33,783 bases of DNA from a virus, in the IMG/VR virus record IMGVR_UViG_3300024518_006527, positions 1 to 33,783 of that record; one strand, written 5' to 3'. Of the stretch, positions 6,246 to 32,458 are shown one piece after another; within the stretch, counting starts at the first letter, position 1; each line of letters starts with the position of its first letter. The notes beneath the pieces were generated by a model that did not search any database, was not told the DNA's origin, and saw only the letters and a list, made by a program, of their open reading frames with translations. The position numbers and the translations under genes were made by a program.

Positions 6246-6289
6246 CCTTAGGAGGGATTTACCGGGCCCCGCTCATATGCTTTTACCAG

Positions 6290-6934
6290 TTATGCAATCG
6301 CTGTAGTGACTGCTTCATCTGCTTCATTGTCCAGCTCGGGCGAGACCGCCATGGGGATCTTCGCAGCGAGCTGGTACAGGTACATGCGGTTCTGGAGAAT
6401 GAATCCAGGGTAACTCGCTACAATAATCTCCGCGGGAGCTTGGCGACTGCGAATAGCAGACCTCTCCAACCGCAGGGTGCGAGCAACATTGAAAATTGGC
6501 ATGTAACTGATGGTTCCGTTTTGGTCATTCACAGTGACCACGCAGGGATCCAAAAGCGTTATCTCACGTTCGGTCTCTTCTTTGACGATGCCAAGAATAG
6601 GTCCATCGGGTGTGGCAATGATTTCCACGCGAGCGTTTTGACAGTCTTCCTGATCCGTGACGGTCACGAATTCGACGTAAGATTTGGCGACCTTAGCGTC
6701 CGTCTCAATCCAATCAGGGCGTAGCTTGGCGCCATGCTCCACCATTTTTTTGAGCATATCAGGAGAGGGATCTTTAACGATATCGTCGTTCTGATCCTTG
6801 ATCACACGAGTCCATTGATTTCGAGTCTCCGTGACGACATGCAGGGTGAATGTCATCCCGAATTTTTCGAAGACCTTGGTCTCGTGCTCAGGCTGCCACG
6901 AAGGCGTCTTCTCGGAGTTCTGTGAGGAGCTCAT
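6290..6934 (-). CDS. Unknown protein, possible Sm-like fold
   Basis: A 214-residue protein whose ATG (6934) lies 47 bases inside the 3' end of the polymerase gene, so it is the last member of the replication operon before the structured island. Residues about 102-180 read as a series of beta strands (VEIIATPDGPILGIVKEE, then TLLDPCVV, then ISYMPIF), a rhythm like small Sm/LSm-type proteins seen in phages. That resemblance is weak and by eye only. The first 90 residues are polar and helical and the C-terminus is acidic. There is no Cys cluster or nuclease motif. A nucleic-acid-binding accessory to replication is plausible from context. Confidence 0.65.
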   Translation of the reverse strand: MSSSQNSEKTPSWQPEHETKVFEKFGMTFTLHVVTETRNQWTRVIKDQNDDIVKDPSPDMLKKMVEHGAKLRPDWIETDAKVAKSYVEFVTVTDQEDCQNARVEIIATPDGPILGIVKEETEREITLLDPCVVTVNDQNGTISYMPIFNVARTLRLERSAIRSRQAPAEIIVASYPGFILQNRMYLYQLAAKIPMAVSPELDNEADEAVTTAIA

Positions 6935-9900
6935 GTTCTTCTACGATTCCTTCCTGTCTAGGCACATAGCTGTGCTTAGCAAGGTACTTATCAATGGCTT
7001 GGCACTCTCCATAACTGGGCCCCACTTCTATGTCAACCTTGAAGGGCACTGGTAGCCACGGGAATTTCTCACTAACACGTGTCTCAGCGTAGTATGTCAC
7101 GAACTCCTTCAGTTCCAACAAGTGCTTCTTCGGGAACTGAAAGACCATGGAGTCATGCACTGTGAGTAGATGACGCGCCCCTGGAAAAGTAGACCGCAGC
7201 GGTTCACTGATTTCCACGAGCTGAGCTACGACGATATCCGAGCTCGTCGATTGAATCTTGAAGTTACGCGCTTGGCGAACCGCACGGCTACGATGCCGTG
7301 AAATATGCGCAAGGGGGAAGCGACGACGACGGAAGAAGTGTGTTTCCACAAACCCGTTACGCAGCACCTCTTGTTCGATGCGCTCCGCGTAGGTCTTGAT
7401 CGCGGGGAACATCTCATAAAGCAAAGCAATAAGCGCCTTGGCTTCATCGAAGTCCACTCCGATACTCTCAGAGATCTTCATGGGGCCAGCCCCGTAGAGA
7501 ATCCCAAAGACAACACGCTTGATACGAGATCGTTCCTTGTCTAAGAGTTTGCGCTCTTTTTCATCGGGTACAATGCTCGCGTCGTCCCGGCCAGCGTATT
7601 TCGCATACGGCCTGCCAAAGACCTTGTGCGCAAAGAAACTGTGCATGTCTAGACCCTCGTTGAGGGCCTTGATCAATGCAGGGTCGTGTGCGTAGGCCGT
7701 AAAGACACGTACCTCAGCGCCTTTGTAGTCGACGTTGACGATCACATAGTCTTCGTTGTCCGGTATGAACAGCTTCTTGATATTCCATCCCGCCAAGAAT
7801 TTCGGGATGTTCTGCATGTTCATGTCTGAGCTGGACAGACGCCCCGTACCCGTTCCGTTCAGATGAAACTGGGTATGAAGAAACCCATCTCGCTTAGACA
7901 GCACACGCACGTTGGCCAAGAAGGTGTTGAGTGCCTTGGAGCTCTTACGCCAGCGCAGTAGGCGCTCCAAGAAGTACGACTTCTGCGTAGGTACTTTCTT
8001 GTCTTCGTCTTGGTACTCGACCAGAGGCCCGAGGAGTTTGGCTGAGGTACTGGGCTGACCCTTCTTCGTCTTGGCTAAGACTTCATAGGGTTCCATTTTT
8101 GTACCGTCAGGGTGTGTCCAGCCCCAGTTGTACAGCACGTTGGCTAGCGACCCTGCATGGTTCAAGTTGAGCGGTGTACCGTCCAGCTTGACCGTGCCTG
8201 CCATTTGATAGAGCTCAGATTCCGTCGAGTTGACGATCTTACGAAGCCCCTCATCAAGCACTGCGATGTACGGTCGGTCGACCTTCAGTCCCTCGTACTC
8301 CATCGCACCCAGTACCCGAGTTGCGGGTATGGCGTGGGAACGCATGAGGCGAGCTACCTTGGAGCCCTCCTTGGCGATCCGCACTTTCTGAACACGAGTG
8401 AGTTGCCTAGTTACGTCAGCATCGACTGCTCCATAGATTTGAAGATCGCGCACAGGCACGTTCTCAAACCCCGCGTCCTTGGAGATCTGTTTCTCCTTCT
8501 TGGTACGCGGATCCTTGGGTCGTTTAGGCTTCTTGATGGCCTTGGGCTTCTTGGGCTTCGTGAACCACTTGACCGGCTTCTTTGGTTTTCCACGCTTACC
8601 TTTCGGCCAATCAGAAACCACTACCTTCCACGCTGCCTGCTGCCCGGCCAAGTGCGCCTTGATGAACGTGTAGTCTTCCATGGCTTGGGTGTATTCAGCC
8701 ATGGCCAGTGCGCGCTCTTTGAGCTCCCTGGTGTGTACGACGAGCTCTTCGCGATACTGTCGGAGCAACGCCAAGAACTCAGGATGGTCTTCCTGAAGGG
8801 AGACCTCCTGGTCTTTGATTTCCTTGTCAGTCGCTTCGACCTGAGAGATCCCTGCCTGGAGCATGAGAATGTCGTAGAGCTTGTCCTCATAGCCACAGTA
8901 CTTGGGCAGCCACCCTGCAGTGAGTGCCTTCAGCCCGTAGCTACCCTTCTTGTCTTCATCGAGAAGGTGCTCTCCGAGCAGCGTGTCCCACACCACGTTA
9001 CGTACAACAAATCCATCCTTCAATTCGATGAACTTGAGATCGAACTTGGCGTTGTGAAATATCTTCGGCTTGAAGGTACCCAGCACACGCTGGATGACCT
9101 CCCGGATTTCAGCTAGTCGGTCAAGATACTCTTGTGGCGCGTGGGGATGCTCGTAGAGAATAGTAGTAGCAAGACCCTCACCCCACCCAAAACAGAAGCC
9201 AATGATCTTGGCTGATTTCTTTTCCGGGTGGAGCGTCGTGGTCTCTGTGTCCACAGAGATGGCCCAGTTTTCTGGGTCACCCTTTTTGGCGTAGTTGATG
9301 ATGTCGTCACATACCGCGACTGCTTCTTCGACAGTCTTGGGTATGATGTACTTGCCCGAAATCTTCTCTAGGGTGACCTCTTCATCAGGGCCTCGTTGAG
9401 ACCGTTCAAAAGCATTCTGTAGATCGAGTTTGAATGTTTCGAAGAGACCTGGCTTAGCCAACAGCGCCTTCTGGCTGAAAGTAACCAAGACCTGAGCATT
9501 GTATTTGGGGTGCTTGAAGAACTTCCCCCGCGCATCTCGGTGCTTACCTTTGAAGCCAAGCTGCCGCATCACAGCAGCGCCCATAGCTACAATGATTTTG
9601 GGGCGCGTAGAGAAGATGGTACTCGTGAGGTAGGTGCTACACGCAGTGAGTACTTCTTTGTTTGGAGCCACGTCTTCTTCGTCCATACACTGCACCGCGT
9701 AGGTGTAGCGACACTCGACGAACTTGAACTCTGGCTTCTGACGCAACATCGTAATCGCAGTTTTTACGATGCGCCCTGCATGTCCCAAGAAGGGCATGTT
9801 ATTGACGCCGGACTTGTCATCCGGTTGATCCGCAATGACTAGTAAGTCAAAGGGCTTGGATACATTGGGACTCGAAGGGGTACACCTCTTGTTGTCGTAT

Positions 9901-9950
9901 CTAGGGCATCCTTTACAAGGTTTGCCCTTCGGTTCTTGCGGTCTACGCAT
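6888..9950 (-). CDS. polA: DNA polymerase I family: UDG-like, 3'-5' exonuclease and polymerase domains
   Basis: The 1020-residue replicative polymerase. Residues 1-185 are a uracil-DNA-glycosylase superfamily domain (family 4 look) with C12-x2-C15 and further Cys at 23, 80 and 88 that could hold an Fe-S cluster. The motif FLGHAGR is present, but the usual GExPG and HPS motifs are changed to ADQPDD and TFSQ, so glycosylase activity is doubtful. The exonuclease follows: Exo I D234-x-E236, Exo II N300/D304, Exo III Y506/D510. Polymerase motif A is VNVDYKGAEVR (D741), motif B is RIKRVVFGILYG (K811, Y819) and motif C is TVHDSM (D933). A Lys/Pro-rich insertion of over 100 residues separates Exo II from Exo III. 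A UDG-like domain in front of PolA is known from SPO1-type phages. The ATG follows the TAG of the primase-helicase gene directly. Confidence 0.95.
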   Translation of the reverse strand: MRRPQEPKGKPCKGCPRYDNKRCTPSSPNVSKPFDLLVIADQPDDKSGVNNMPFLGHAGRIVKTAITMLRQKPEFKFVECRYTYAVQCMDEEDVAPNKEVLTACSTYLTSTIFSTRPKIIVAMGAAVMRQLGFKGKHRDARGKFFKHPKYNAQVLVTFSQKALLAKPGLFETFKLDLQNAFERSQRGPDEEVTLEKISGKYIIPKTVEEAVAVCDDIINYAKKGDPENWAISVDTETTTLHPEKKSAKIIGFCFGWGEGLATTILYEHPHAPQEYLDRLAEIREVIQRVLGTFKPKIFHNAKFDLKFIELKDGFVVRNVVWDTLLGEHLLDEDKKGSYGLKALTAGWLPKYCGYEDKLYDILMLQAGISQVEATDKEIKDQEVSLQEDHPEFLALLRQYREELVVHTRELKERALAMAEYTQAMEDYTFIKAHLAGQQAAWKVVVSDWPKGKRGKPKKPVKWFTKPKKPKAIKKPKRPKDPRTKKEKQISKDAGFENVPVRDLQIYGAVDADVTRQLTRVQKVRIAKEGSKVARLMRSHAIPATRVLGAMEYEGLKVDRPYIAVLDEGLRKIVNSTESELYQMAGTVKLDGTPLNLNHAGSLANVLYNWGWTHPDGTKMEPYEVLAKTKKGQPSTSAKLLGPLVEYQDEDKKVPTQKSYFLERLLRWRKSSKALNTFLANVRVLSKRDGFLHTQFHLNGTGTGRLSSSDMNMQNIPKFLAGWNIKKLFIPDNEDYVIVNVDYKGAEVRVFTAYAHDPALIKALNEGLDMHSFFAHKVFGRPYAKYAGRDDASIVPDEKERKLLDKERSRIKRVVFGILYGAGPMKISESIGVDFDEAKALIALLYEMFPAIKTYAERIEQEVLRNGFVETHFFRRRRFPLAHISRHRSRAVRQARNFKIQSTSSDIVVAQLVEISEPLRSTFPGARHLLTVHDSMVFQFPKKHLLELKEFVTYYAETRVSEKFPWLPVPFKVDIEVGPSYGECQAIDKYLAKHSYVPRQEGIVEEHELLTELREDAFVAA

Positions 9951-19294: not shown

Positions 19295-19716
19295 TGATCT
19301 TCCTTGGCCTTTTCTTCTTCTAGAGCTTTGCTTTGCGCGACTATATTTGCGACTTCCTGCTGAGATTGTCGTAGTTGTTCATCCCGCGTCGGGACACTGC
19401 CCGGTGTGGGATCGAAAAGGTCGGTGGCGGACATGGCTACGTTGGCGCTGCCATTGGATTTGTGGGGGTTCGGGTCTTCAGCTTCTGACAGTTCCTCCAC
19501 AGGGGGTGTGACAGCCGTGGGGGCATCGACTTCTGCGGCTGCCGTAGCCTCACGCGGGCCCCGAGTCTCCGCGTCCACCTTGATCCCGTCAGGGAAGGCC
19601 TTCTTGAATAGTTCACAAAGTTGATCTAGATTTTTGACCGCAAATCCATTGCGGTCAAAGTACTCCTGGATCATCTCTCGGAGATCCGAATCTTCAAACT
19701 CTAGGCGTAGCTTCAT
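19291..19716 (-). CDS. Small acidic protein with disordered middle, unknown
   Basis: A 141-residue protein that overlaps the helicase stop (ATGA) and the next gene's GTG. Residues 1-45 could form a compact domain of one strand and two or three helices (LRLEFEDSDLREMIQEYF). Residues 50-110 are Ala/Pro/Glu-rich and disordered. The last 30 form a probable helix (QLRQSQQEVANIVAQSKALEEE). No known family is recognised. Tight coupling to the SNF2-like helicase and the nuclease suggests an adaptor for one of them; this is inference. Confidence 0.6.
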   Translation of the reverse strand: MKLRLEFEDSDLREMIQEYFDRNGFAVKNLDQLCELFKKAFPDGIKVDAETRGPREATAAAEVDAPTAVTPPVEELSEAEDPNPHKSNGSANVAMSATDLFDPTPGSVPTRDEQLRQSQQEVANIVAQSKALEEEKAKEDQ

Positions 19717-21626
19717 GGGATTAACCTCACCTGTGCGGTGTCACGCAACATTGTGCGATCGTAGACACAATCGTCGTCGTAAATTTCAATCTTGTGCTTC
19801 AAGCAACGGGATATCTCAGGACACGTAGCGCACATAGAACGCTTAGTGACCAGGTCACTGAAGTCTATCTTCTGCTCCAGTGCAGTTGCCTTGGCTTCGT
19901 CCAAGGTGTGCCGCCCAATGAGACGGTACACGACCACTTTTCTGTCTTGCCCGATACGGTAATTGCGGTCCAGAGACTGCAGATAGTGATCTAGACTCCA
20001 GGGCAAGTTGTAGTAAATAGTGTAATTGGCTGCGTTTAACGTAATGCCAACCCCAGTCGATACCTGACCAATGTACACTCTGCATGCCGGTTCGTTGTTG
20101 AACTGCGCCATGCACTGCTGCACTGTGGCCCCCGTCATACCCCCTTCAACGCGCACATACCCCACCTTGGTTTTCTTTACCGCCTTTTCGATCTGGTCAA
20201 GTTCGACGCGGTAAGAAGCCCAGATGATAACCTTGTTAGCCTCATCTTCCAACACCGTTTCCAATAAACCTACGAGTTCATCGAGCCGAGCGTTCTTCTT
20301 CAGAGAATTCACAGTGGGGGCAGGCAACTTGCGTATTATTTTGCACTTCTGGGTGTAAGGCGACACCTCGTTCTCTACACAGTCGTGCACGTGTTTACAC
20401 CCATCACAGAGGCGTGGATTCTTCACCGTCTGGTACATGAATCCGCTGCCAATCTGATCTACCTTGTTCAGCAGCGAGATGACCTCAGGCACATAAACGT
20501 ATGGTTGCAGTGTCTTCCCTGCAGCCTGGTCCAGCGTGCCTTCCTCCAAGGCGTCTTTCACCACAGACCCTGCAGCGTCGCATCTCTCCATGATCATATT
20601 GTTGTACGCTTTTTTCTGTGCTCCATACACAGGGAACCGGACATCGATGACCGTTTGGTCGGGTAGATCTAGACACTCCTCTTTGGTCTTGCGTGAGCAT
20701 ACGAGATTAACCCGCTCGTTCATGATATCGAGATTCTTGAATCCCAGGAGTATCTTGGGCCGAGCCTCGTTAACTTCGTGCGCAGGATATACCCCGAACA
20801 TTTTTCGGAAAGCCCACCAGTGTTCCGCACAGAAATACTTGCCAAGAAAGCGAAGCTGTGCGTACATGTCGAAAGGTGAACCCAGAGAGGGAGTACCTGA
20901 AAGTAAAATACGCCGATAGGCCCGCCCAGCTAGGGCACGTGCTGCCTTGGTGCGTTTTGCAAACGGCGTCTTCATTTGATGAGACTCATCTGCAACGATA
21001 ACGGAGTAGGGTATTTTGATGAGCTCTTCGTAGTACAACGACGCCATCGTATACGTCACAATAGTGGCGACCGGGTTGGTACCGATTGCCTCTTGGATAC
21101 GCTGCTGTTTCTTCTTCGGGCTGTATCCGTCTACTACAACGACATCGTCTATGTTACCGTGCTTCCCGAACTCTTCAGCCCAAGTGTGCAGCATCACCCT
21201 AGGGCAGAGGATGAGAGAATGGTCACCCGTCAACCGCTGCAGATCCACAGTCACTTTGCACTTCCCGAGGCCAGGGGAGTAGAACAGCCCCGCGCGTAAG
21301 TGCTTGTAGAGGTGCAGCAGCCCGTCCATTTGGTGTTGGTAGGGATCCGTGACAAAGCTAAACTCGATAGGCAATACGGCCGGCTTGCCGAGCTCAGCGA
21401 CGTGGGCGGCAGTCCCCTCGCTCAGTTCAAGGTTCGGCACTACCTTCGACAGGTCAGACAATACAAATGAATGGACGGGGAAAAACGCAGGAAAACGCCA
21501 TGATGTTGAGTCACCATGGTACACTGCGCCGTACACTTTTTTCATCTCGTTTGCCAAACCGAGATCTACCCGAAGAGTAAAAATGGGCGTTCGGTACACA
21601 GACGAGATTTGTAAGACAGGGACCAC
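19713..21626 (-). CDS. SNF2-family (SF2) helicase/translocase with two cysteine modules
   Basis: I start at the GTG at 21626 (637 residues) because GAGGAGG lies 5 bases upstream; an in-frame TTG at 21668 overlaps the portal gene. Motifs: Q-like YQHQ near 96, motif I SPGLGKCK (about 118-124, with Cys where Thr is usual), DESH (213-216), SGTP (243-246), motif V STGVGITLNAAN, and motif VI QSLDRNYRIGQDR. These are SNF2 hallmarks. An insertion near 406-427 and the C-terminus near 598-619 each carry C-x2-C-x5-C-x11-C with identical spacing. Phage SNF2-like proteins are usually assigned to replication, recombination or anti-restriction tasks. It is first in the minus block, 27 bases from the divergent portal gene. 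Confidence 0.9.
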   Translation of the reverse strand: MVPVLQISSVYRTPIFTLRVDLGLANEMKKVYGAVYHGDSTSWRFPAFFPVHSFVLSDLSKVVPNLELSEGTAAHVAELGKPAVLPIEFSFVTDPYQHQMDGLLHLYKHLRAGLFYSPGLGKCKVTVDLQRLTGDHSLILCPRVMLHTWAEEFGKHGNIDDVVVVDGYSPKKKQQRIQEAIGTNPVATIVTYTMASLYYEELIKIPYSVIVADESHQMKTPFAKRTKAARALAGRAYRRILLSGTPSLGSPFDMYAQLRFLGKYFCAEHWWAFRKMFGVYPAHEVNEARPKILLGFKNLDIMNERVNLVCSRKTKEECLDLPDQTVIDVRFPVYGAQKKAYNNMIMERCDAAGSVVKDALEEGTLDQAAGKTLQPYVYVPEVISLLNKVDQIGSGFMYQTVKNPRLCDGCKHVHDCVENEVSPYTQKCKIIRKLPAPTVNSLKKNARLDELVGLLETVLEDEANKVIIWASYRVELDQIEKAVKKTKVGYVRVEGGMTGATVQQCMAQFNNEPACRVYIGQVSTGVGITLNAANYTIYYNLPWSLDHYLQSLDRNYRIGQDRKVVVYRLIGRHTLDEAKATALEQKIDFSDLVTKRSMCATCPEISRCLKHKIEIYDDDCVYDRTMLRDTAQVRLIP

Positions 21627-21653
21627 ACTCACCTCCTCTAGGACGGAATAGCT

Positions 21654-23387
21654 ATGCCTGGTGCTCAAGGAGATCTGGGACTGGCTGACCTGGCTACCTC
21701 ACGCGGAGGAGCGAGTCACCCCAACCCCATGTTCGACTTCCTGACGGGGTTCGCCCCTAGGAAGCTCAAAGACCTATTCCGATGGGTTGAATATCTCTAC
21801 TACAACTCAGCGCACATTTTTGCTGCGCTCAAGAAATTCGCTGAATATCCTATCACAGATATTACCATCGATTCCAACGATGAGGCGCTGAAGGACAACT
21901 GGACTCGGGTACTAGAAAAGTCACTGAAGATCAAGAGCATCTCTATAAAGACGGGCCTTGACCTCCATCTCTACGGCAACTCATTCATCTCAGTGTACCA
22001 CCCCTTCAACCGATTCCTACTCTGCAATTCATGCGGAGCGCGGACCGGGATAAAAAAGGTCAAGTACAAGTTCAAGCTGAAGGCGATGAGCTTCAGCTAC
22101 CACTGCCCGAGCTGTCATTCTCGTGTAAGCGGCAAGTTGAAAGACGAAAAGGTTTCCGACGAAAAACGTATCAACGTTATCCGTTGGGACCCCAAGTTGA
22201 TGGACATCAACCACAACCCCATCACGGGTGAGAGCAAGTACTACTACACCATCCCTCAAGAGCTGAAGCACAAAGTTGAGAAGGGCGACGCCCATATCAT
22301 CAACACGCTTCCGGTAGAGTTTCTCCGCGCAATCAAAGAAGACAAAGTCTTTGAATTTGCAGATGACCACCTCTACCACATGAAGATCGACCCCCCTGCA
22401 GGCATTGAAGCCCAGTGGGGATTTCCTCCTCTTACCTCAACCATCAAGCTCTTTTTCTACACCGCCATTCTTCGGAAGGCGAACGAGTCCATCGCCCTTG
22501 AACACATAGTACCCTTCCGAGTACTGCACCCTGCGCCCATCAGCGGAACCGCAGACCCTGCGTCTACGCTCAACATGTTGAAGTGGCGCCAAGAGCTCGA
22601 AACCAACATCAAGCAGTGGCGCAGAGACCCACTGCATATCATGTTCGCCCCCGCCGCTTTGGGCGTCACCATGATGGGTGGCCAAGGCCGGTCCCTGCTC
22701 ACCCTTGGTGAAGTAAAAGACGCCGAGGACAACATCATCGCAGCCATGGGCATCCCCCGAGAGTTTCTCTACGGAGGGCTATCTTTTACGGGGTCTGCGA
22801 TCACACTACGCATGCTGGAGAACCAGCTAGAGACCTACACCAGCCATCTAAATGAGCAGCTCAACTGGATTGTCGGCCAGTCCGCAACTATTTTGGGTTG
22901 GAAATCGGCGGAGGTACATTACACCCCGTTCAAGCTCATCGATGATGCACAGCAAAAACAGAGTCTCCTGAATCTCAATGCGATGAAGCCTTTGGTTTCC
23001 GACGGCACCATCCTTGAGTTACATGACATCGACATCAACAAGGAGCGGGGTAAGCGTCAGCAAGAAATGCTTGACGAGACCCGATTCCAGATGGAGACAC
23101 AACAGAAAATGGAGAAGCTGCAAAACTCCCTGGCACAGCAAGCGACGCAAGAGTCTCAGTCAGGGACAGGGCTCTCCTACAACCCGCAGATGGTCATCGC
23201 ACAAGCCGAACAGATCATCCAACAGATGCAGCGAATGGATCCTGGGTCTCAGAAATCTCTCATGGCGCAGCTCTCCCAGGAGGACGCTGTCATGTACGCC
23301 GTAGTGAAGGATCGCTGGGCAACTATGCAGTCTATGCAAAAACAGCAAGCAACGTCACAAGCTGCGATGGGTGGGGGTCCGGTATGA
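21654..23387 (+). CDS. Portal protein with zinc-ribbon insert
   Basis: A 577-residue protein that I read as the portal, the dodecameric gate for packaging and tail attachment. Support: size, order (directly before a small acidic protein), the helix-rich middle with an aromatic/Arg-rich segment, the turn AAMGIPREFLYGG (about 363-375) typical of phage portals, where Met-Gly-hydrophobic-Pro precedes the stem region, and the Gln-rich C-terminal coil. An unusual ribbon, C124-x2-C127 and C151-x2-C154, is inserted in the N-terminal third. The terminase of this phage also has a ribbon, so the two motor parts may both need zinc. The ATG at 21654 has a weak AGGA upstream. The stop overlaps the next gene by 4 bases. 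Confidence 0.82.
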   Translation: MPGAQGDLGLADLATSRGGASHPNPMFDFLTGFAPRKLKDLFRWVEYLYYNSAHIFAALKKFAEYPITDITIDSNDEALKDNWTRVLEKSLKIKSISIKTGLDLHLYGNSFISVYHPFNRFLLCNSCGARTGIKKVKYKFKLKAMSFSYHCPSCHSRVSGKLKDEKVSDEKRINVIRWDPKLMDINHNPITGESKYYYTIPQELKHKVEKGDAHIINTLPVEFLRAIKEDKVFEFADDHLYHMKIDPPAGIEAQWGFPPLTSTIKLFFYTAILRKANESIALEHIVPFRVLHPAPISGTADPASTLNMLKWRQELETNIKQWRRDPLHIMFAPAALGVTMMGGQGRSLLTLGEVKDAEDNIIAAMGIPREFLYGGLSFTGSAITLRMLENQLETYTSHLNEQLNWIVGQSATILGWKSAEVHYTPFKLIDDAQQKQSLLNLNAMKPLVSDGTILELHDIDINKERGKRQQEMLDETRFQMETQQKMEKLQNSLAQQATQESQSGTGLSYNPQMVIAQAEQIIQQMQRMDPGSQKSLMAQLSQEDAVMYAVVKDRWATMQSMQKQQATSQAAMGGGPV

Positions 23388-24625: not shown

Positions 24626-24691
24626 AATCACCCTCCTAAAGATGTGTAGAAATGTCGTGTCGTGCATACTCCAGGTCTAAGTCCGGAGCAT

Positions 24692-24743
24692 CACAACCTT
24701 TTACCACTAGCGGTTGTGTAATTAGGACAACACCGAGTATAAT
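24692..24743 (+). promoter_or_regulatory. Promoter of the RNA polymerase gene with inverted-repeat operator
   Basis: A perfect -10 hexamer TATAAT lies at 24738-24743, with TTGTGT (24714-24719, 3 of 6 matches to TTGACA) 18 bp upstream. A 7-bp inverted repeat CACAACC (24692-24698) / GGTTGTG (24712-24718) covers the -35 area and may be an operator. The -10 is only 9 bases from the ATG and there is no ribosome site, so the mRNA is probably leaderless. Confidence 0.55.
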
Positions 24744-24752
24744 TCACTAGCT

Positions 24753-27700
24753 ATGGCCTCGGAATTACAGCCACTACTGACCGACGCGGGCACTCGCCGT
24801 GAGTCCATTCGTGAAAAGACGGTCGAAGGCCTCAAGGCTTTGTTCCCCATCGTTGGGCGGAGCACCACCCTTGAGGTCAAACACGTCAACGTAAAGAAAA
24901 AGGACTACTCGTCGAATCAGCAGAAGGAAGCCCTCATGAAGGGGCGCACTCTGCATGAGCCGATCACGGGTACGCTGGTTCTCAAGGACAACGACGGTAA
25001 AGTCGTAGAGGAAAAGAAAAACCATACCCTTGTCCATCTGCCCTACTTCACAGAACGCCACACATTCATCGTGGGCGGTAACGAGTACGACATACCTAGC
25101 CAGATGCGGCTCAAGCCGGGGGTGTATACCCGTGAGCGCAACAACGGAGAGTTCGAAGCTGCCTTCAACCTGAGCAAAGGAAGCAACTTCCGTCTGTCCA
25201 TGGAGCCTGAGTCCGGGCGTCTTCACATGGAGCTCGGGACATCCAAGGTCCCGCTGTACTCTTTGCTGCGATCCTTAGGCGTGCCCGAGGCAGATATCCG
25301 GCAGCACTGGGGTGAAGAACTGCGTGACGTCAACGCAAACAGCTTCAAGGGCAAAGAAGAAATCGCCATCAACAAGGTCATCAATAAGATCAAACGTAGG
25401 GGAGATACCGTACCCACTACGGTTGAGGGAAAAAAGGAATTCGTACGTAACTACTTTGATGCCACCGCCATGGATGCTGACGTCAATATGCGCACCTTGG
25501 GTGTCCCTGTAGACAAGGCCAACCCTCTGGCGTTGCTGACAGCCTCCAAAAAACTAATAGAAGTACAAAAGGGTAACGACTCAGAGGATGACCGCGATAG
25601 CCTTGAGTTCAAGACCATCCACTCCGTAGATGACTTCTTTAGGGAGCGGCTCAACGTAGACGCCAAACGCACCATCGCACGTAAAGTGGGCTTGAAGATG
25701 AATCAAGCTCGTGGACGGACCTTGAAAGAACTCGTCCCCAACTCCACGTTTACGCGCTCGCTCAATTCGTTTATTACGAGCTCCAATCTGAGCTCTATCC
25801 CGATGCAGATCAACCCTGTTGAAATCATCGACCACGCGTCCCGTATTACTTCACTGGGTGAGGGTGGTATCGGTAGTGAGCGCGCTATTCCTTTTGCAGC
25901 GCGCCAAGTACACAACACCCACCTCGGCATTCTGGACCCGGTTCGTACACCTGAGTCCTTCAAAGCAGGTGTTGATGTACGTGCGGGGCTGGCTGCATTC
26001 CGAGATCGACGTGGGAATCTTTACTCCCTAATGAAGGATATTCGTTCTGGGAAAATGACTCACGTGCCTGCCACTACTTTAGCCAAGAGCACCGTTGCAT
26101 TCTCAGGGCAAGAACATCGGTCTCGGCTAGATGCCGTCCGAGGTAGAGACGTAGTATCCGTAGCGCGCAAAGACGTAGACTACGAGCTGCCCAATGCTGC
26201 GTACATGTTTGGCCCCACCACTGCGATGGTGCCCCTGATAGATGGGATGCAAGGTAACCGTACCATCATGGGCTCCAAGTTCCAGACTCAAGCACTGCCG
26301 TTGCTGGAGCGCGAAGCTCCCTACGTACAGGCTGCTGCGCCTCGTAAGGGCGAGAGCATGGAACGAGAAATCGCACGACTTGTCGTGCCCACTGCGAAAG
26401 GGGCTGGCACTGTAACTAAAGTAGATGCCGATTACATCTACGTCCGCCCTGATGGTCCCAAGACAGCCGCGCCGGCCGTCCAAAAAATACCCTACGACAC
26501 TTATTTCCCCCTCTCATCTAAGACGTACCTTCACAACGATGTGACCGTGAAGGCAGGGGACAGAGTCAAAAAAGACCAGACGCTGGCCACCTCTAACTTC
26601 ACCAAAAACAATACCATGGCTCTTGGTAAGAACATGACCGTAGGGTACATGGCTTACTACGGGAAAAATTCTAACGACGCTGTGGTGATTAGTGCAGGGG
26701 CTGCAAAAAAGCTCACCTCTGAGCACATGTACAAGGAGGTCATGACCAAAGGTCAGGATGTAATCCTTGGCAAAGAGAAGTACACGGCCTACTACGGCTT
26801 GAACTTCACGGCCGAGCAGCTGGGAAACCTTGACAGCAACGGTATAGCCAAGGAAGGCGTCACACTACACAAGGGTGACCCTATTATCCTTGGCATGCGC
26901 AAGTCTCCTCCCTCTCCTGAGGCTGCGCTACTCGGTAACTTTCACAAGTCACTGGTCAAGCCCTACCGCGACATCACAGTCACCTGGGAAAAGACGGTAC
27001 CGTGCGTCATCCAAGACACCATGGACAGCGCCCGGCAAATCATGGTGACTGTGCGTACACAAGAACCGATGAAAATCGGAGACAAGCTTGCCAACCGTTT
27101 CGGCGGTAAGGGGGTCGTCTCTGAAATCGTCGATGATGAACGCATGATTCAAGCGGAGGACGGCAACCCTATTGATGTTTTGTTCACATCAGCAGGCGTA
27201 GTAAGCCGCATCAACCCTGGTCAGATCGTAGAGTCAGCGCTTGGTAAAGTGGTAGCCAAAACAGGCAAGCCAATAATCCTCCCGCAATTCATGCGAGAAG
27301 ACAATGTGAAGTTCGCCAAGAAGCTGCTGAAAGAGCACAAGCTCAAGGACAAAGAAACAGTCTACGATCCCATCGCCGACAAAAAGATAGACGACATCTT
27401 CGTAGGTAATTCCTACATACATAAGCTGTTCAAATCTACTGAGACCAACTACTCAGCCCGAGGGGTGTCTGCTTATGACATCAACCTTCAACCTACACGT
27501 GGTGGCGACGAAGGTGCCAAGGGCGTTGGCAAGATGGAAATCAATGCGTTGTTAGCGCACAACGCACGGAACGTCTTGAAAGAAAATCTCACAACCAAAG
27601 GTGAGAAGAGCGATGAGTTCTGGCGAGCCTATGAATTTGGGCTGCCCCCTCCCCCTCCCAAGACTCCATTTGTGTCCGAGAAGTTTGTCACCATGCTGCA

Positions 27701-29132
27701 AGGTGCAGGCATCAATGTAGACAAACAGGGGTCACAGGTTTCCTTGGGACCTCTCACCGACCGAGACATCAAAAAGCTGAGCTCGGGCGCTCTTGCCGTA
27801 CCCAGCTTGGAGAAGTCCAAGTCCTTCATGGTTAGCGCCAAGAACATGAAGCCGGAAAAGGGCGGGCTTTTCGACCCTAGTTTGACAGGGGGCCTTAGCG
27901 GTACTCGTTGGTCTCACATGGATCTAGCTGAGCCAGTAGTCAACCCCGTCTTTGAAGAGCCCGTACGTAGATTCCTGGGCATGACCAAAGCCCAGCTGCG
28001 CGCTGAAATGGGAGAGATAGGCGGTGATGGAGTGCGTAAACGCCTCAACCGCATCGACATGGAAAAGAAGGAGGATGAACTTCTTCAACTCACAAAGACC
28101 AAGCGCGGCGCTGACTTAGACAACGCAATCAAGCAGCTGAAATACATCCGCGCTTTGAAGGCGGGGGACCACAAGAAAATAGGAGACGCATACACGATCT
28201 CCAAGGTTCCAGTCATCCCTCCTGTGATGCGTCCTATCCTTCCATCGCAACGAGGTAACGAGCTCCAAGTTTCCGACATCAATTACCTGTACCGAGATGT
28301 TGGGTTGGCTTCTGAAGCTTTGAAGGGTATGGCGGCGATCGGGCTTCCGAGTGCTACTTCGGACGCACGCCATCACTTACATGACGCAGCCGGTGCGTTG
28401 TTTGGCACAATGCGCCCCACAAGTCCGCAGTTGAAGGGGCGCGAAGCCAAGGGCTTTATCGAACAAATCACGGGAGCTGGCTCTCCCAAGTCTGGCTTTC
28501 TGCACAAAAAGATACTGAAACGACAGCAAGACCTGTCGGGACGAGCCACGGCCACCCCAGACAACACTCTCAACATGGATCAAATTGGTATCCCCGAAGA
28601 CATGTTGTGGAAGACCTACTCCAAGTTTTTGATGCGAGGCCTAGTGGGGCAAGGGTACAAGCCCACACACGCTGCCGAGATGATCGAAGAGCGTCACCCA
28701 GCCGCCAAGGTTATTCTTGATGCCGAGATTCAAAAAAGGCCTGTGTTTGTTAATCGCGCTCCCTCTCTGCATAAGCATAACTTCGTTGCTGCTTACCCTG
28801 TATCAGTTCCAGGAAAGTCGCTACGAGTAAATCCATTCATGGAGAGGGGACAGAACCTCGACTACGACGGCGACACCATGCAGCTGCATGTGCCTGTCGG
28901 AACCAAGGCCGTTGAGGAAGCACAAGGACTTACCTTGTCTAAGCTACTCTTCAGCGACAAAAATAGGAACGACCTCATGGTCTTCCCGCAACATGAAGCC
29001 ATCCTGGGTGTCTATCTCGCCACTGCGAAGAAGGAGCCTGGGCGTGCCAAGAAGTTCAAGACCAAAGCCGCCGCCATGAAAGCCTATCGTCTTGGCGAAA
29101 TCACCATGAATACCCCTGTCTCCATCGGATAG
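24753..29132 (+). CDS. rpoB-rpoC: RNA polymerase beta subunit fused to N-terminal half of beta-prime
   Basis: A 1459-residue fusion. Residues 1 to about 960 are a full but short beta subunit: VGGNEYDIPSQMRLKPGVY near 105-125, the rifampicin-region counterpart FITSSNLSSIPMQINP, the fork counterpart SLGEGGIGSERA, GDKLANRFGGKG (776-787), and SYIHKLF to GKMEINALLA at the end. A five-proline linker (965-969) leads into beta-prime: KPEKGGLFDP, then HMDLAEPV with no zinc-finger insert between, VIPPVMRPILP, NRAPSLHKHNF and the catalytic loop NLDYDGD (1368-1374; three Mg-binding Asp). The chain stops about 85 residues later, before the funnel. The rest is at 30647-32458. The four Cys of the usual N-terminal beta-prime zinc finger are absent. 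This is a viral-type core lacking alpha and omega in the window. Confidence 0.95.
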   Translation: MASELQPLLTDAGTRRESIREKTVEGLKALFPIVGRSTTLEVKHVNVKKKDYSSNQQKEALMKGRTLHEPITGTLVLKDNDGKVVEEKKNHTLVHLPYFTERHTFIVGGNEYDIPSQMRLKPGVYTRERNNGEFEAAFNLSKGSNFRLSMEPESGRLHMELGTSKVPLYSLLRSLGVPEADIRQHWGEELRDVNANSFKGKEEIAINKVINKIKRRGDTVPTTVEGKKEFVRNYFDATAMDADVNMRTLGVPVDKANPLALLTASKKLIEVQKGNDSEDDRDSLEFKTIHSVDDFFRERLNVDAKRTIARKVGLKMNQARGRTLKELVPNSTFTRSLNSFITSSNLSSIPMQINPVEIIDHASRITSLGEGGIGSERAIPFAARQVHNTHLGILDPVRTPESFKAGVDVRAGLAAFRDRRGNLYSLMKDIRSGKMTHVPATTLAKSTVAFSGQEHRSRLDAVRGRDVVSVARKDVDYELPNAAYMFGPTTAMVPLIDGMQGNRTIMGSKFQTQALPLLEREAPYVQAAAPRKGESMEREIARLVVPTAKGAGTVTKVDADYIYVRPDGPKTAAPAVQKIPYDTYFPLSSKTYLHNDVTVKAGDRVKKDQTLATSNFTKNNTMALGKNMTVGYMAYYGKNSNDAVVISAGAAKKLTSEHMYKEVMTKGQDVILGKEKYTAYYGLNFTAEQLGNLDSNGIAKEGVTLHKGDPIILGMRKSPPSPEAALLGNFHKSLVKPYRDITVTWEKTVPCVIQDTMDSARQIMVTVRTQEPMKIGDKLANRFGGKGVVSEIVDDERMIQAEDGNPIDVLFTSAGVVSRINPGQIVESALGKVVAKTGKPIILPQFMREDNVKFAKKLLKEHKLKDKETVYDPIADKKIDDIFVGNSYIHKLFKSTETNYSARGVSAYDINLQPTRGGDEGAKGVGKMEINALLAHNARNVLKENLTTKGEKSDEFWRAYEFGLPPPPPKTPFVSEKFVTMLQGAGINVDKQGSQVSLGPLTDRDIKKLSSGALAVPSLEKSKSFMVSAKNMKPEKGGLFDPSLTGGLSGTRWSHMDLAEPVVNPVFEEPVRRFLGMTKAQLRAEMGEIGGDGVRKRLNRIDMEKKEDELLQLTKTKRGADLDNAIKQLKYIRALKAGDHKKIGDAYTISKVPVIPPVMRPILPSQRGNELQVSDINYLYRDVGLASEALKGMAAIGLPSATSDARHHLHDAAGALFGTMRPTSPQLKGREAKGFIEQITGAGSPKSGFLHKKILKRQQDLSGRATATPDNTLNMDQIGIPEDMLWKTYSKFLMRGLVGQGYKPTHAAEMIEERHPAAKVILDAEIQKRPVFVNRAPSLHKHNFVAAYPVSVPGKSLRVNPFMERGQNLDYDGDTMQLHVPVGTKAVEEAQGLTLSKLLFSDKNRNDLMVFPQHEAILGVYLATAKKEPGRAKKFKTKAAAMKAYRLGEITMNTPVSIG

Positions 29133-29141
29133 AGATCACCC

Positions 29142-29528
29142 GTGAGTACTACCTACTACCAACTTGGTTGCTACGAAGCCTTGGTGAAGATGGGCATGCA
29201 GCTCACCTTCAACTCGCCGCAAGAAGCAGCGGCTCACGCCAAGACACGGGAAACCATCGGAGATGTCACGGGGTTCGCAGGTAGTCTCGCAGGCGGCTTG
29301 GCAGGTGGCGCTGTCGGTACAGCAGCAGGTGGTCCTGCGGGGAGTCTTGCTGGCGGACTGGCTGGAGGGTATGCAGGGGAGAAGATGCTCAGCATGCCTG
29401 CCACTACGGCCTACGATACGGCCCACGATGTGAAACAGCGTACTGGAGCTCAGTACAACAAGACGGTGGGGCAGCTCAACGCTGCTTCGGGGGTACCCAC
29501 TGGTGTGCCCCAAGGGAGAGCTTTCTGA
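29142..29528 (+). CDS. Gly-zipper protein with shared N-terminal motif
   Basis: A 128-residue protein starting with GTG at 29142, 9 bases after the polymerase stop; only a weak AGAG precedes it. The N-terminus YYQLGCYEALVKMGM matches the leader of the genes at 1415 and 30027. Residues about 48-83 repeat GGLAGGAVGTAAGG-like units, a glycine zipper typical of membrane-inserting or tightly packed helices. The rest is polar. There is no signal peptide. It might be a virion or membrane-perturbing peptide, for example a DNA-ejection protein; the true role is unknown. Confidence 0.6.
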   Translation: MSTTYYQLGCYEALVKMGMQLTFNSPQEAAAHAKTRETIGDVTGFAGSLAGGLAGGAVGTAAGGPAGSLAGGLAGGYAGEKMLSMPATTAYDTAHDVKQRTGAQYNKTVGQLNAASGVPTGVPQGRAF

Positions 29529-29550
29529 GCTCTCAAAAAAAGGATAAAAA

Positions 29551-30024
29551 ATGACTCGTAACATCACATTCGTATTGTTCTTCGCGCTCCTGCTAGTTGG
29601 GTGTGGCGGTGACGGTGAGGCAGTAGAAGGCCAGGAGTTCTGGCAAGCCATCGTGGCTCACCTTCTGGAGATCGTGGTCGTCATCGCGACCCCGCTCATT
29701 CTCATCCTCGTGCGCAAGCTCATCCAAGTCATCGAGAAGAAGACCGACATCGATGTGGCTGAGAAGCACGAAAAGATGATCGATGAGTGGATCACCAAGG
29801 GTATCGCATACGGCCATGAGCAAGGGCGGAAGGCGCTCAAAGAGGGCAAAGACCCTGTCACTGGCGACGAGAAAAAGAACGCGGCAGTTGATTTCATCGC
29901 CGCTGGGCTAGACAATACGGGTCTAGTCACCATGGGCCGAGACGCATTGGCTAAACTCGTAGAGTCCAAGCTGAACGTTGAGCGGGCGGCCGAAGACACC
30001 GAAGCCCCTGAAGAATCCGAGTAA
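29551..30024 (+). CDS. Holin-like membrane protein with lipobox
   Basis: A 157-residue protein with AGGA 7 bases before its ATG. It begins with a signal-like segment ending in LLVGC (Cys18), a lipobox. A second hydrophobic helix spans about 30-55 (VAHLLEIVVVIATPLILILV). The remaining 100 residues are charged and helical (AEKHEKMIDEWITKG, DEKKNAAVDFIAAGL, DALAKLVESKL). A hydrophobic N-terminus followed by a Lys/Glu-rich helical half with a late (V/I)E(S/A)xV-like end recalls the phage LL-H holin family, which lets endolysin reach the wall. No endolysin is next to it. Alternatively it is a lipoprotein or inner-membrane accessory. It sits between the two polymerase halves. Confidence 0.55.
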   Translation: MTRNITFVLFFALLLVGCGGDGEAVEGQEFWQAIVAHLLEIVVVIATPLILILVRKLIQVIEKKTDIDVAEKHEKMIDEWITKGIAYGHEQGRKALKEGKDPVTGDEKKNAAVDFIAAGLDNTGLVTMGRDALAKLVESKLNVERAAEDTEAPEESE

Positions 30025-30026
30025 CC

Positions 30027-30647
30027 ATGTCAAACTACGCCTACCTGCTGGGGAGCCGCGCCGCCTTCACCAAACTCGGGATGCCCTATCAGGGCCCCGA
30101 GGCTGAGGAAGAGGAGGAGGATCCTATAGCCCCACCCGAAGGCGTACCTCCTTCCCCTGAAGAGGATGAGGAGATTCCACCGGAGTTGCTCGCCGCGCTC
30201 ATGGCACAGGCTGAGGAACAAGGGCCTGAGGGTGCTCCTCCTGAGATGGAGGGCGCCCCGCCCGAGATGGAAGCTGGGCCTCCCGGCATGGAAGAGGAAA
30301 TGCCGCCCGAGATGGAAGCTGGCCCTCCCAGCATGGAGACAGAAGAGGAAGTCCCCGAGGAGCTCATTGCAGCGCTCATGGCAGCACAAGAACAAGGCGA
30401 AGGCCCTGGCGCCGCCATGGGGTTGGAAGATCCTGAGGGTGAAGCGCAGTCTCCCACCGCAGATATGTTCGTAGACTTCGCACACCAAGATGGTACCGCC
30501 GACGAAGCCGACCCCAACGTCGAGATGGAAGAAGCACCTGGTACGGAAGATAAAAAGCCCTCCTGGAGTGGCAACTCTTCCCTCGAAGCAGGGGATGCCG
30601 GTACGCGTAACCACTCAATGGGTCTGCCTCAGTTCAGCGGTGCCTGA
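30027..30647 (+). CDS. Acidic Pro/Met/Glu repeat protein with shared N-terminal motif
   Basis: A 206-residue, very acidic protein starting 2 bases after the previous stop. The N-terminus YAYLLGSRAAFTKLGM carries the shared leader. The body (25-120) is repeats of GAPPEME/AGPPGME/EMPPEME with two copies of a helical PPELLAALMAQ-like unit. The C-terminal 60 residues are polar. Its stop overlaps the start of the polymerase C-terminal gene (TGATG). Proline/methionine-rich acidic proteins with a small N-terminal tag can be scaffold or tail-fibre-like linkers, or bind the polymerase. No family is recognised. Confidence 0.6.
   Translation: MSNYAYLLGSRAAFTKLGMPYQGPEAEEEEEDPIAPPEGVPPSPEEDEEIPPELLAALMAQAEEQGPEGAPPEMEGAPPEMEAGPPGMEEEMPPEMEAGPPSMETEEEVPEELIAALMAAQEQGEGPGAAMGLEDPEGEAQSPTADMFVDFAHQDGTADEADPNVEMEEAPGTEDKKPSWSGNSSLEAGDAGTRNHSMGLPQFSGA
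30232..30360 (+). repeat. Pro/Met/Glu short tandem repeats inside CDS
   Basis: Imperfect tandem units encoding G(A/P)PPEME and AGPP(G/S)ME, flanked by two copies of a unit encoding PPELLAALMAQAEEQG and VPEELIAALMAAQEQG. Low-complexity coding repeat; no mobile element features. Confidence 0.6.
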
Positions 30648-32458
30648 TGTCCAACACGTTTGGGCAGTTTCTTCTGAACGAAGCGATACCCACGCCGTAT
30701 CGACCTGACGGTACGTACACAAAAAAGAAGCTACAAGCGAGCATGATTCGCTTAGCTAAGGCTGACCCTGAGAAGTTCTCGACGGTGATCACTGAGGTGA
30801 AGCGCCTGGGGGATGAATTCGCCACCATGGAAGGCGTATCTGTAGGCCTGGATGACATAGCGCCACTGTATAAGAGGCGAAACGCCATCACACTTCCTGC
30901 GCTAAAACGGATACGCCAGGCCAAGTCCCGCGAAGCACGCCAAGATATAATCCGTGAGACACAGGATAAACTCCTCAACTATGCCATGACGCACCCCGGC
31001 ACTATGGGTGACATGGTACGTGCAGGCTCACGGGGTGCGCCCTTGCAGTTAATGCGCGCAGTGGGGGCTCCTGCTGCGGCTAGTGACGAAAAAGATGAGC
31101 TCCAACCGTGGTTAACTGTGCACAGCTATTCAGAGGGACTTCGGCCTTCTGAGTGGTGGGCTACGAACCGCGAAGCTCGTATGGCCGCCGTCAAGACAAA
31201 CATTGAGGTCACCGAACCAGGTGATCTGTCGAAAATCCTGGTCAATAACACAAGCCACCAGGTAATCACTGAGGCTGACTGCAACACCAAGAACGGACTC
31301 AGCCTGGCAACCGACGACCCCGACCTGCTAGATCGTTTTCTGGCACGGACGGCTGGGACTCAACGAGCAGAAACCCTGGTTACGCCGGGAGTAGTTCGTG
31401 AGCTCAAGAAGAAAAAAATACGCACCGTAATAGCGCGTTCCCCTATGACTTGTGAATCAGGCGTAGGTATATGCCAAAAATGCATGGGCCTGAACAGTAC
31501 AGGCGCGATGAACAAAATAGGGGACAACGTTGGCATACGCGCCAGTCAATCTCTGGGAGAACCGCTAACACAGCTCGCCTTGGACGCTAAGCATGGTGTG
31601 CGGCTCTCTGGCGGAGACCGTGCTCACCTGGCGGGGCTAACTGGATTTCGTGCCATCCTAGAATCTCCCGCCTCCTTCAAAAACAAAGCGATACTAGCTC
31701 CAGAGAACGGAAATATCACATCTGTGATAGCAGCGCCTCAAGGCGGACACTTTGTCACTATGGGCGAAACCAAGCAGCACATTGCGCAAGGGCTAAAGCC
31801 ATTAGTAAAAGCGGGAGATAAAGTACACGCAGGAGATGTACTTTCAGAGGGAGTTCCTCGCCCAGACGAAGTGGTCAAGCACAAAGGACTCGGTGCAGGA
31901 CGTGATTACGTAGTAGACAAGCTGTCCGGCATCTACAAAGATAACGGGATCAACGTTGACCGCCGACACTTTGAGGTATTGGCCAAGTCCACGTTGAATT
32001 ATCTGACTATCGAAGACATCGACGACGAAGACTCAGCCAACCACGGCCTAGTCCGCGGTGACGTCATCGACTACAACCGATTCCGTAACGTGATTTCCAA
32101 CAGCGTTGACGAGCTCCCCCTCAAGCAAGCTGAGGGACGCCACCTTGGCGAAGGTGTTTTGCACCACCTTGCAGGTACACAACTCACGGCTCCCATGGTA
32201 AAGGAACTACAGCGCGCAGGGATCCGGCGTGTGAAAGTCACCATGAAAGCACCTGTAGTTAGCCCAGTCATGGCGCCAGCTACGCGAAATCCTTTGCTAA
32301 ACCCCGACTGGATGGTCCGCTTAGGCCATAGGTATCTGAAGCAGTCTATACTCGAAGGGGCGCAAAAAGGACAAACGTCGGATCTTCACAGCACACATCC
32401 CGTACCCGGCATCATATTCAGCTCTGAGTTTGGTGAAGGATCGGCTGGTCGTTATTGA
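30647..32458 (+). CDS. rpoC: RNA polymerase beta-prime, C-terminal half
   Basis: A 603-residue protein that completes beta-prime. It begins with TFGQFLLNEAIP, matching the bacterial TTxGRxxxN(E/D)xxP segment just after the active-site domain, then GVSVGLDDIAP. It has the second zinc site: C212 and CESGVGICQKC (C269, C276, C279). The bridge/trigger-loop region reads NVGIRASQSLGEPLTQLAL (294-312), followed by KHG, where the active-site His is kept but the usual MRTF is changed to LDAK. The conserved IYKDNGINVDRRHFEVL and SPVMAPAT segments follow, and the protein ends with a rather short C-terminal region. It is translated from an ATG overlapping the previous stop. With the fused beta at 24753 it forms the two large core subunits. 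Confidence 0.93.
   Translation: MSNTFGQFLLNEAIPTPYRPDGTYTKKKLQASMIRLAKADPEKFSTVITEVKRLGDEFATMEGVSVGLDDIAPLYKRRNAITLPALKRIRQAKSREARQDIIRETQDKLLNYAMTHPGTMGDMVRAGSRGAPLQLMRAVGAPAAASDEKDELQPWLTVHSYSEGLRPSEWWATNREARMAAVKTNIEVTEPGDLSKILVNNTSHQVITEADCNTKNGLSLATDDPDLLDRFLARTAGTQRAETLVTPGVVRELKKKKIRTVIARSPMTCESGVGICQKCMGLNSTGAMNKIGDNVGIRASQSLGEPLTQLALDAKHGVRLSGGDRAHLAGLTGFRAILESPASFKNKAILAPENGNITSVIAAPQGGHFVTMGETKQHIAQGLKPLVKAGDKVHAGDVLSEGVPRPDEVVKHKGLGAGRDYVVDKLSGIYKDNGINVDRRHFEVLAKSTLNYLTIEDIDDEDSANHGLVRGDVIDYNRFRNVISNSVDELPLKQAEGRHLGEGVLHHLAGTQLTAPMVKELQRAGIRRVKVTMKAPVVSPVMAPATRNPLLNPDWMVRLGHRYLKQSILEGAQKGQTSDLHSTHPVPGIIFSSEFGEGSAGRY

Follow-up and report, generated by a model that had tools for sequence, protein, structure and literature searches.

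How the catalytic core of a multisubunit RNA polymerase (RNAP) can be joined at one subunit boundary and cut at another is the question raised by the IMG/VR virus record IMGVR_UViG_3300024518_006527, a 33,783-bp fragment of a large uncultured phage (the whole stretch is hereafter called the window). An earlier note on the same DNA had described a 1459-residue chain with beta and beta' up to the catalytic loop, and a 603-residue second half of beta' three genes downstream. Both open reading frames (ORFs) were confirmed on the plus strand at these lengths (Table 1), the first comprising the entire beta subunit and beta' to just beyond the catalytic DxDGD loop, and the second the remainder of beta'. 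The Pfam profiles divided accordingly, with RNA_pol_Rpb2_6 (1.3e-43), Rpb2_3 (5e-8), Rpb1_1 (9.6e-7), and Rpb1_2 (8.6e-19) on the fused chain and Rpb1_5 (6.6e-18) on the second chain. In PDB profile searches, the fused-chain profile matched RpoB over 21–1006 and RpoC from 1004 onward, and the second-chain profile matched RpoC from Clostridium thermocellum residue 579 onward. The chains are separated by three ORFs on the same strand (29142–29528, 29551–30024, and 30027–30647), the last of which overlaps with its stop codon the start codon of the second chain. Together, the two chains most likely represent the core of a two-chain phage DNA-dependent RNAP that is alpha-less, sigma-dependent, and virion-packaged, and that was fused once and then re-cut.

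The same fused chain was found by tblastn against cultured phages in Salmonella phage Arash and in Vibrio phages D69, D181, and D148, each with a separate second chain. Profile scans of IMG/VR yielded 489 and at least 519 related stretches on hundreds of contigs. Sampled loci were sorted by ORF content and made non-redundant at 98% identity, resulting in 96 split loci and 70 single-chain loci, the latter with beta and the whole of beta' in one chain of ~2,000 residues. An additional sample, which overlapped with the first and comprised 74 loci, contained exclusively single-chain or truncated single-chain forms, and unfused clade members were absent from the loci sampled (best 80 kept per scan). 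The proposed fusion of beta with half of beta' in a phage polymerase is thus borne out by ORFs, Pfam matches, and 96 loci. Nor is it an isolated oddity, being part of a broad clade with single-chain beta-beta' enzymes among its members, within which the split is the later event. A scan of genome contigs returned one phage-like contig of a metagenome-assembled genome (MAG) only. The contig JAGYMN010000078.1 (L093) of an Actinomycetota MAG carries the fused phage RNAP gene and was likely derived from a phage and mis-binned with bacterial DNA. Two contigs labelled as “Staphylococcus” and “Enterococcus” phages (L012 and L013) were considered as unfused phage relatives and rejected; since they carry ordinary Firmicutes-type rpoB/rpoC with the Zn ribbon, they were treated as bacterial contamination and used as outgroup only.

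A frameshift, a misassembly, or the decay of an ordinary beta/beta' pair, broken or joined by error, could in principle produce such a layout. Breakage does occur in polymerase genes of this clade, as extra breaks inside ORFs were detected in D181, L052, L079, L083, and L082/L175, one of them beside a homing endonuclease and the others possibly frameshifts. The break between the two chains, however, lies at the same site in 64 lineages (clustered at 75%), where the first ORF stops and the second starts cleanly, recurs in many independent genomes as well as in cultured phages, and is flanked by chains that are both under purifying selection (pN/pS 0.11–0.16 for both chains against L005 and L006), so that an origin by error is scarcely conceivable. 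Regarding the additional disruptions themselves, the fused gene is broken at window residue ~500, by either an intron or a true division of the gene, in L004 (8932–14503) and L083 (1293–6811), and the homing endonuclease of D181 is located in the gap of its broken fused gene. In L010 (7965–11921), the fused ORF ends at “VIINRAPSLNS”, just before the catalytic loop, and is followed by HNH-like and reverse-transcriptase-like ORFs. L009 (7989–13142) has ~265 additional residues within beta, which resemble added domains and not an intein.

In trees rooted on bacteria, the split forms were recovered as one clade (support 98 in FastTree with 127 rows; 100 in IQ-TREE under LG+C20 with 43 rows), and the phage clade was set apart from three bacterial-type rows with a support of 100 in a tree without mReC reference, archaeal, or eukaryotic rows. 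The single-chain forms appeared as a grade in one tree and as a sister clade in the other (approximately unbiased test, p = 0.49); in either case the split arose once. Bacteria and the single-chain forms both have a continuous beta', which makes the split the derived state and the fusion the older event, and because the split forms constitute one clade, the fusion came first and was followed by one later break in beta'. The architecture is confirmed as widespread and is best read as a fusion followed by one re-cut.

A five-proline linker had been proposed between beta and beta', but the prolines (residues 965–969) align with the E. coli beta C-terminal motif “GMPESFNVLLKEIRSLGI”, beta' begins ~30 residues later, and relatives have residues other than proline at this position. 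The AlphaFold2 (AF2) model of fragment 561–1459 of the fused chain (pLDDT 80.5, pTM 0.60) matches beta over model residues 1–437 and beta' over ~432–899, i.e., to residue ~997 and from ~992 in full-chain numbering. As these matches abut, the linker was rejected; the relative placement of the two halves in this model is poorly tested (pTM 0.60). For the second chain, the AF2 model (pLDDT 85.3) matched bacterial beta' with a Z of 34 over 534 residues (rmsd 4.2). In E. coli beta' numbering, residue ~551 is the last covered by the fused chain, and the second-chain model matches 571 to 1367. The break thus lies in the interval 551–571, a short distance upstream of the point at which cyanobacteria split beta'. 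In agreement with the suggestion that a TTxGR-like segment stays with the second half, cyanobacterial RpoC2 aligns with the second chain in the structure comparison only from residue 15–16 of the latter on. Different cuts close by in beta' are found in the phages YerA41 and IME392, and the region is therefore a site of repeated breakage.

At the split site, single-chain relatives have a short spacer, and both chain ends at the gap carry conserved RNAP residues. The gap itself differs in size (3 to 5716 nt) and content among relatives; an intron was rejected on account of this size range and of the lack of an Rfam intron match in the window. A split intein or trans-splicing of the RNA could nevertheless reunite the separately encoded halves, giving one working beta-beta' chain like that of the single-chain relatives. 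Inteins do occur in RNAP genes of relatives: the single 2613-residue beta-beta' ORF of L078 (4001–11842) contains a LAGLIDADG intein right after its catalytic NADYDGD loop, and the 2254-residue second-chain ORF of L087 (5516–12280) has three LAGLIDADG matches, probably from several inteins in one polymerase half. In most members, however, the first chain stops 0–5 residues past conserved RNAP sequence and the second starts on conserved sequence, leaving no room for intein halves; together with the negative Rfam search, this renders rejoining very improbable.

Judged by sequence and predicted fold, the enzyme belongs with the bacterial-type RNAPs and has their standard catalytic elements. The window retains the DxDGD triad in the beta' double-psi beta-barrel (DPBB), both beta DPBB lysines (E. 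coli K1065/K1073), the clamp helices, the bridge helix, the trigger loop with the trigger-helix His, and the four Cys of the second Zn site. The idea of a distinct polymerase type is fair for the architecture, though not for sequence and predicted fold. None of the 63 split and none of the 59 single-chain representatives matched a simple pattern for the first Zn site. An intact second beta' gene was sought in ten large split genomes (180–226 kb), each of which has a single beta' DPBB locus, within the fused ORF. The alpha subunit (PF01000), assembly platform of the bacterial-type core, was detected in none of 20 large clade genomes compared to 13 of 14 cellular controls, although a very divergent alpha would escape. 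The sigma factor named alongside the polymerase in the earlier note is indeed encoded in the window, outside the polymerase region (24753–32458).

Sigma-70 region 2 was detected in 8/10 large split genomes and in 1/10 large single-chain genomes (divergent sigmas may escape). The viral sigma might serve the host RNAP while the phage enzyme finds promoters via another factor, like AR9 gp226. Some large phages do recruit host RNAP with their own sigma factors (PMC7824862), and the single-chain relatives keep the RNAP mostly without a detectable sigma; on the other hand, sigma is more frequent in split than in single-chain genomes, the clamp helices are retained, and the sigma Gp10 was found together with the RNAP in Arash virions (467 spectra; PMC10585845). 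Service to the host enzyme is therefore considered doubtful.

According to the same report, Gp206, the fused chain of Arash, was the most detected virion protein (3516 spectra, 100% coverage), with more spectra than the major capsid protein, and Gp216, the second chain, was among the top five (1210 spectra) (PMC10585845). The alternative, a late RNAP outside the virion whose detection in Arash particles is a contamination, draws on the same source: 116 proteins, many of them enzymes, were reported for the particles, and the authors allow for carry-over of abundant intracellular protein as well as for early transcription (PMC10585845). Given that Gp206 outnumbers the major capsid protein in spectra and that the RNAP gene adjoins the portal gene in both subclades, contamination is regarded as unlikely.

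In the preferred reading of a virion-packaged two-chain enzyme, chain 1 would supply beta, the beta' clamp, and the Mg-binding DPBB, and chain 2 would complete beta' with the rim of the secondary channel, the bridge helix, the trigger loop, and the C-terminus. Their contact would be non-covalent, as between cyanobacterial RpoC1 and RpoC2, with the break placed in a variable loop shortly after the beta' DPBB. Because alpha was undetected, the role of the alpha dimer in assembly is probably taken over by the tethering of beta and beta' within a single chain. The phage sigma probably docks on the retained clamp helices and the flap, directing the core to phage promoters. The enzyme appears to be packaged in the virion of relatives and probably also in that of the present phage, where it would transcribe early after injection. 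Separate beta and beta' genes would have given rise to a single fusion, which was cut once after the DPBB in the clade ancestor.

Several observations weigh against this reading. The window is only a 34-kb fragment, and other subunits could therefore lie outside it; sigma was undetected in 2/10 split genomes; and the window chain has a shortened flap tip and lacks the N-terminal Zn ribbon, so that sigma binding and RNA exit may differ. To these is added the carry-over explanation of the Arash authors, in whose virion list the sigma is Gp10, while Gp196, the homolog encoded nearest to the RNAP gene, is absent from the main text (PMC10585845). Biochemistry for any clade member was not found in the literature.

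Among known systems, the closest are Arash (gp206 + gp216), D69, D181, and D148, which share with the window the fused beta-beta' N-half, the separate beta' C-half, the split site, the upstream portal gene, and the clade. Arash and D69 also encode sigma; the fused chains are 33–34% identical to that of the window, and D181 and D148 differ by an extra insertion in the fused gene. The single-chain IMG/VR phage RNAPs (e.g., L176, L210, and L226) have the same beta/beta' junction, portal neighbourhood, and undetected alpha, but differ in the unsplit beta' and in the rarity of sigma given above. Fused RpoB-RpoC proteins of Helicobacter and Wolbachia likewise join beta to beta', but are cellular, have an unsplit beta', and occur with alpha. 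In cyanobacteria and plastids, beta is a separate protein and beta' is likewise divided shortly after the DPBB (RpoC1 + RpoC2), at a point ~15 residues farther along the second-chain model. The phiKZ/AR9-type RNAPs of jumbo phages resemble the window in lacking alpha, in a beta' split soon after the DPBB, and in having a virion form, yet their beta is split too and unfused to beta', and they have no recognisable sigma (PMC7598289), in contrast to the intact, fused beta and the sigma of the window. The mReC RNAPs are also phage-encoded, alignable to bacterial beta/beta', and apart from bacteria (Weinheimer & Aylward 2020, PMC7481178), the last as far as the three bacterial-type rows show for the present clade. 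They are reported there as phage beta and beta' with a filter for NADxDGD, whereas the window has NLDYDGD; fusion or splitting of these subunits was not found in the accessible text (PMC7481178). NADxDGD occurs in 18 split and 45 single-chain representatives, and the single-chain forms, which for the most part carry it, may partly coincide with the mReC RNAPs. The large terminase subunit of the window shares PF03237 (2.7e-6) with the mReC lineage, whose PF07068 capsid was detected in 0/25 clade records (T4 control 1.6e-122). No described beta-beta' fusion with a split beta' was found in the literature (open-access coverage).

Table 1 Coordinates of the polymerase genes, their elements, and neighbouring features in the window
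Feature	Position	Strand
Fused RNAP subunit, complete beta and beta' N-half through the DxDGD loop, 1459 aa	24753..29132	+
Beta part of fused chain, residues 1–994	24753..27734	+
Five-proline run, residues 965–969, within beta C-terminal motif	27645..27659	+
Beta/beta' junction, residues ~992–999, no extra spacer	27726..27749	+
Catalytic loop NLDYDGD, residues 1368–1374, Mg-binding	28854..28874	+
Three small intervening ORFs: Gly-zipper-like (128 aa), holin-like (157 aa), acidic (206 aa)	29142..30647	+
Beta' C-half, 603 aa: TTxGR-like start, rim helices, bridge helix, second Zn site, trigger loop, C-terminus	30647..32458	+
TTxGR-like segment TFGQFLLNEAI, on second chain	30659..30691	+
Bridge helix region, second-chain residues 167–202	31145..31252	+
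Trigger-loop region, second-chain residues 295–339, with aligned trigger-helix His	31529..31663	+
Viral sigma factor, regions 2 and 4, 236 aa	15101..15811	+
SNF2-family helicase, conserved in neighbourhood	19713..21668	-
Portal protein, 577 aa, Arash gp204 homolog	21654..23387	+
Promoter-like element TTGTGT-18-TATAAT, conserved in relatives, ends 9 nt before fused-ORF ATG	24714..24743	+

The neighbourhood is conserved: in relatives of both layouts, split and single-chain, the RNAP gene has the portal gene on its upstream side; a recognised capsid gene was not found within the window fragment. The motif TA[TC]AnT was located 4–14 nt before the fused start codon in 25/66 upstream regions (1.8 expected), and the mRNA would be nearly leaderless if it is the -10 element; a generic promoter scan gave no excess of sigma-70 sites in the window. 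Besides TATAAT, close relatives share with the window the upstream element CTTTTACCA (within 24690–24752) ahead of the RNAP gene, and it is also present at window ~6279–6288. The ORFs at 29142, 30027, and 32539 have alike N-terminal patterns (e.g., “YQLGCYEALVKMGM” and “YLLGSRAAFTKLGM”), perhaps a shared targeting tag. On the minus strand, one ORF (6888–9950) combines DNA polymerase A with an N-terminal domain of the uracil-DNA-glycosylase superfamily.

The locus indicates that the borders between the subunits of a universal enzyme are not fixed: they can be removed by fusion and set anew by a cut elsewhere. A compact bacterial-type RNAP, apparently without alpha, offers a test of the purpose of the alpha platform and of how sigma might work without it. 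The annotation of Arash should also be corrected, as gp206 is listed as “beta” yet carries the catalytic half of beta'; in the accessible text of the Arash report, Gp206 and Gp216 are named “beta” and “beta'”, and the fusion with half of beta' is not described (PMC10585845). In a broader view, for which we consider the chances to be even, a major phage polymerase lineage may have lost alpha via the joining of beta and beta', and one branch may have re-cut beta' and tends to keep sigma, which would make it a minimal three-polypeptide sigma-dependent virion holoenzyme. Since the relatives include cultured phages, one apparently with the enzyme in its particle, this unusual design is testable at the bench, and Salmonella phage Arash and the Vibrio phages D69, D181, and D148 permit purification and infection tests now.
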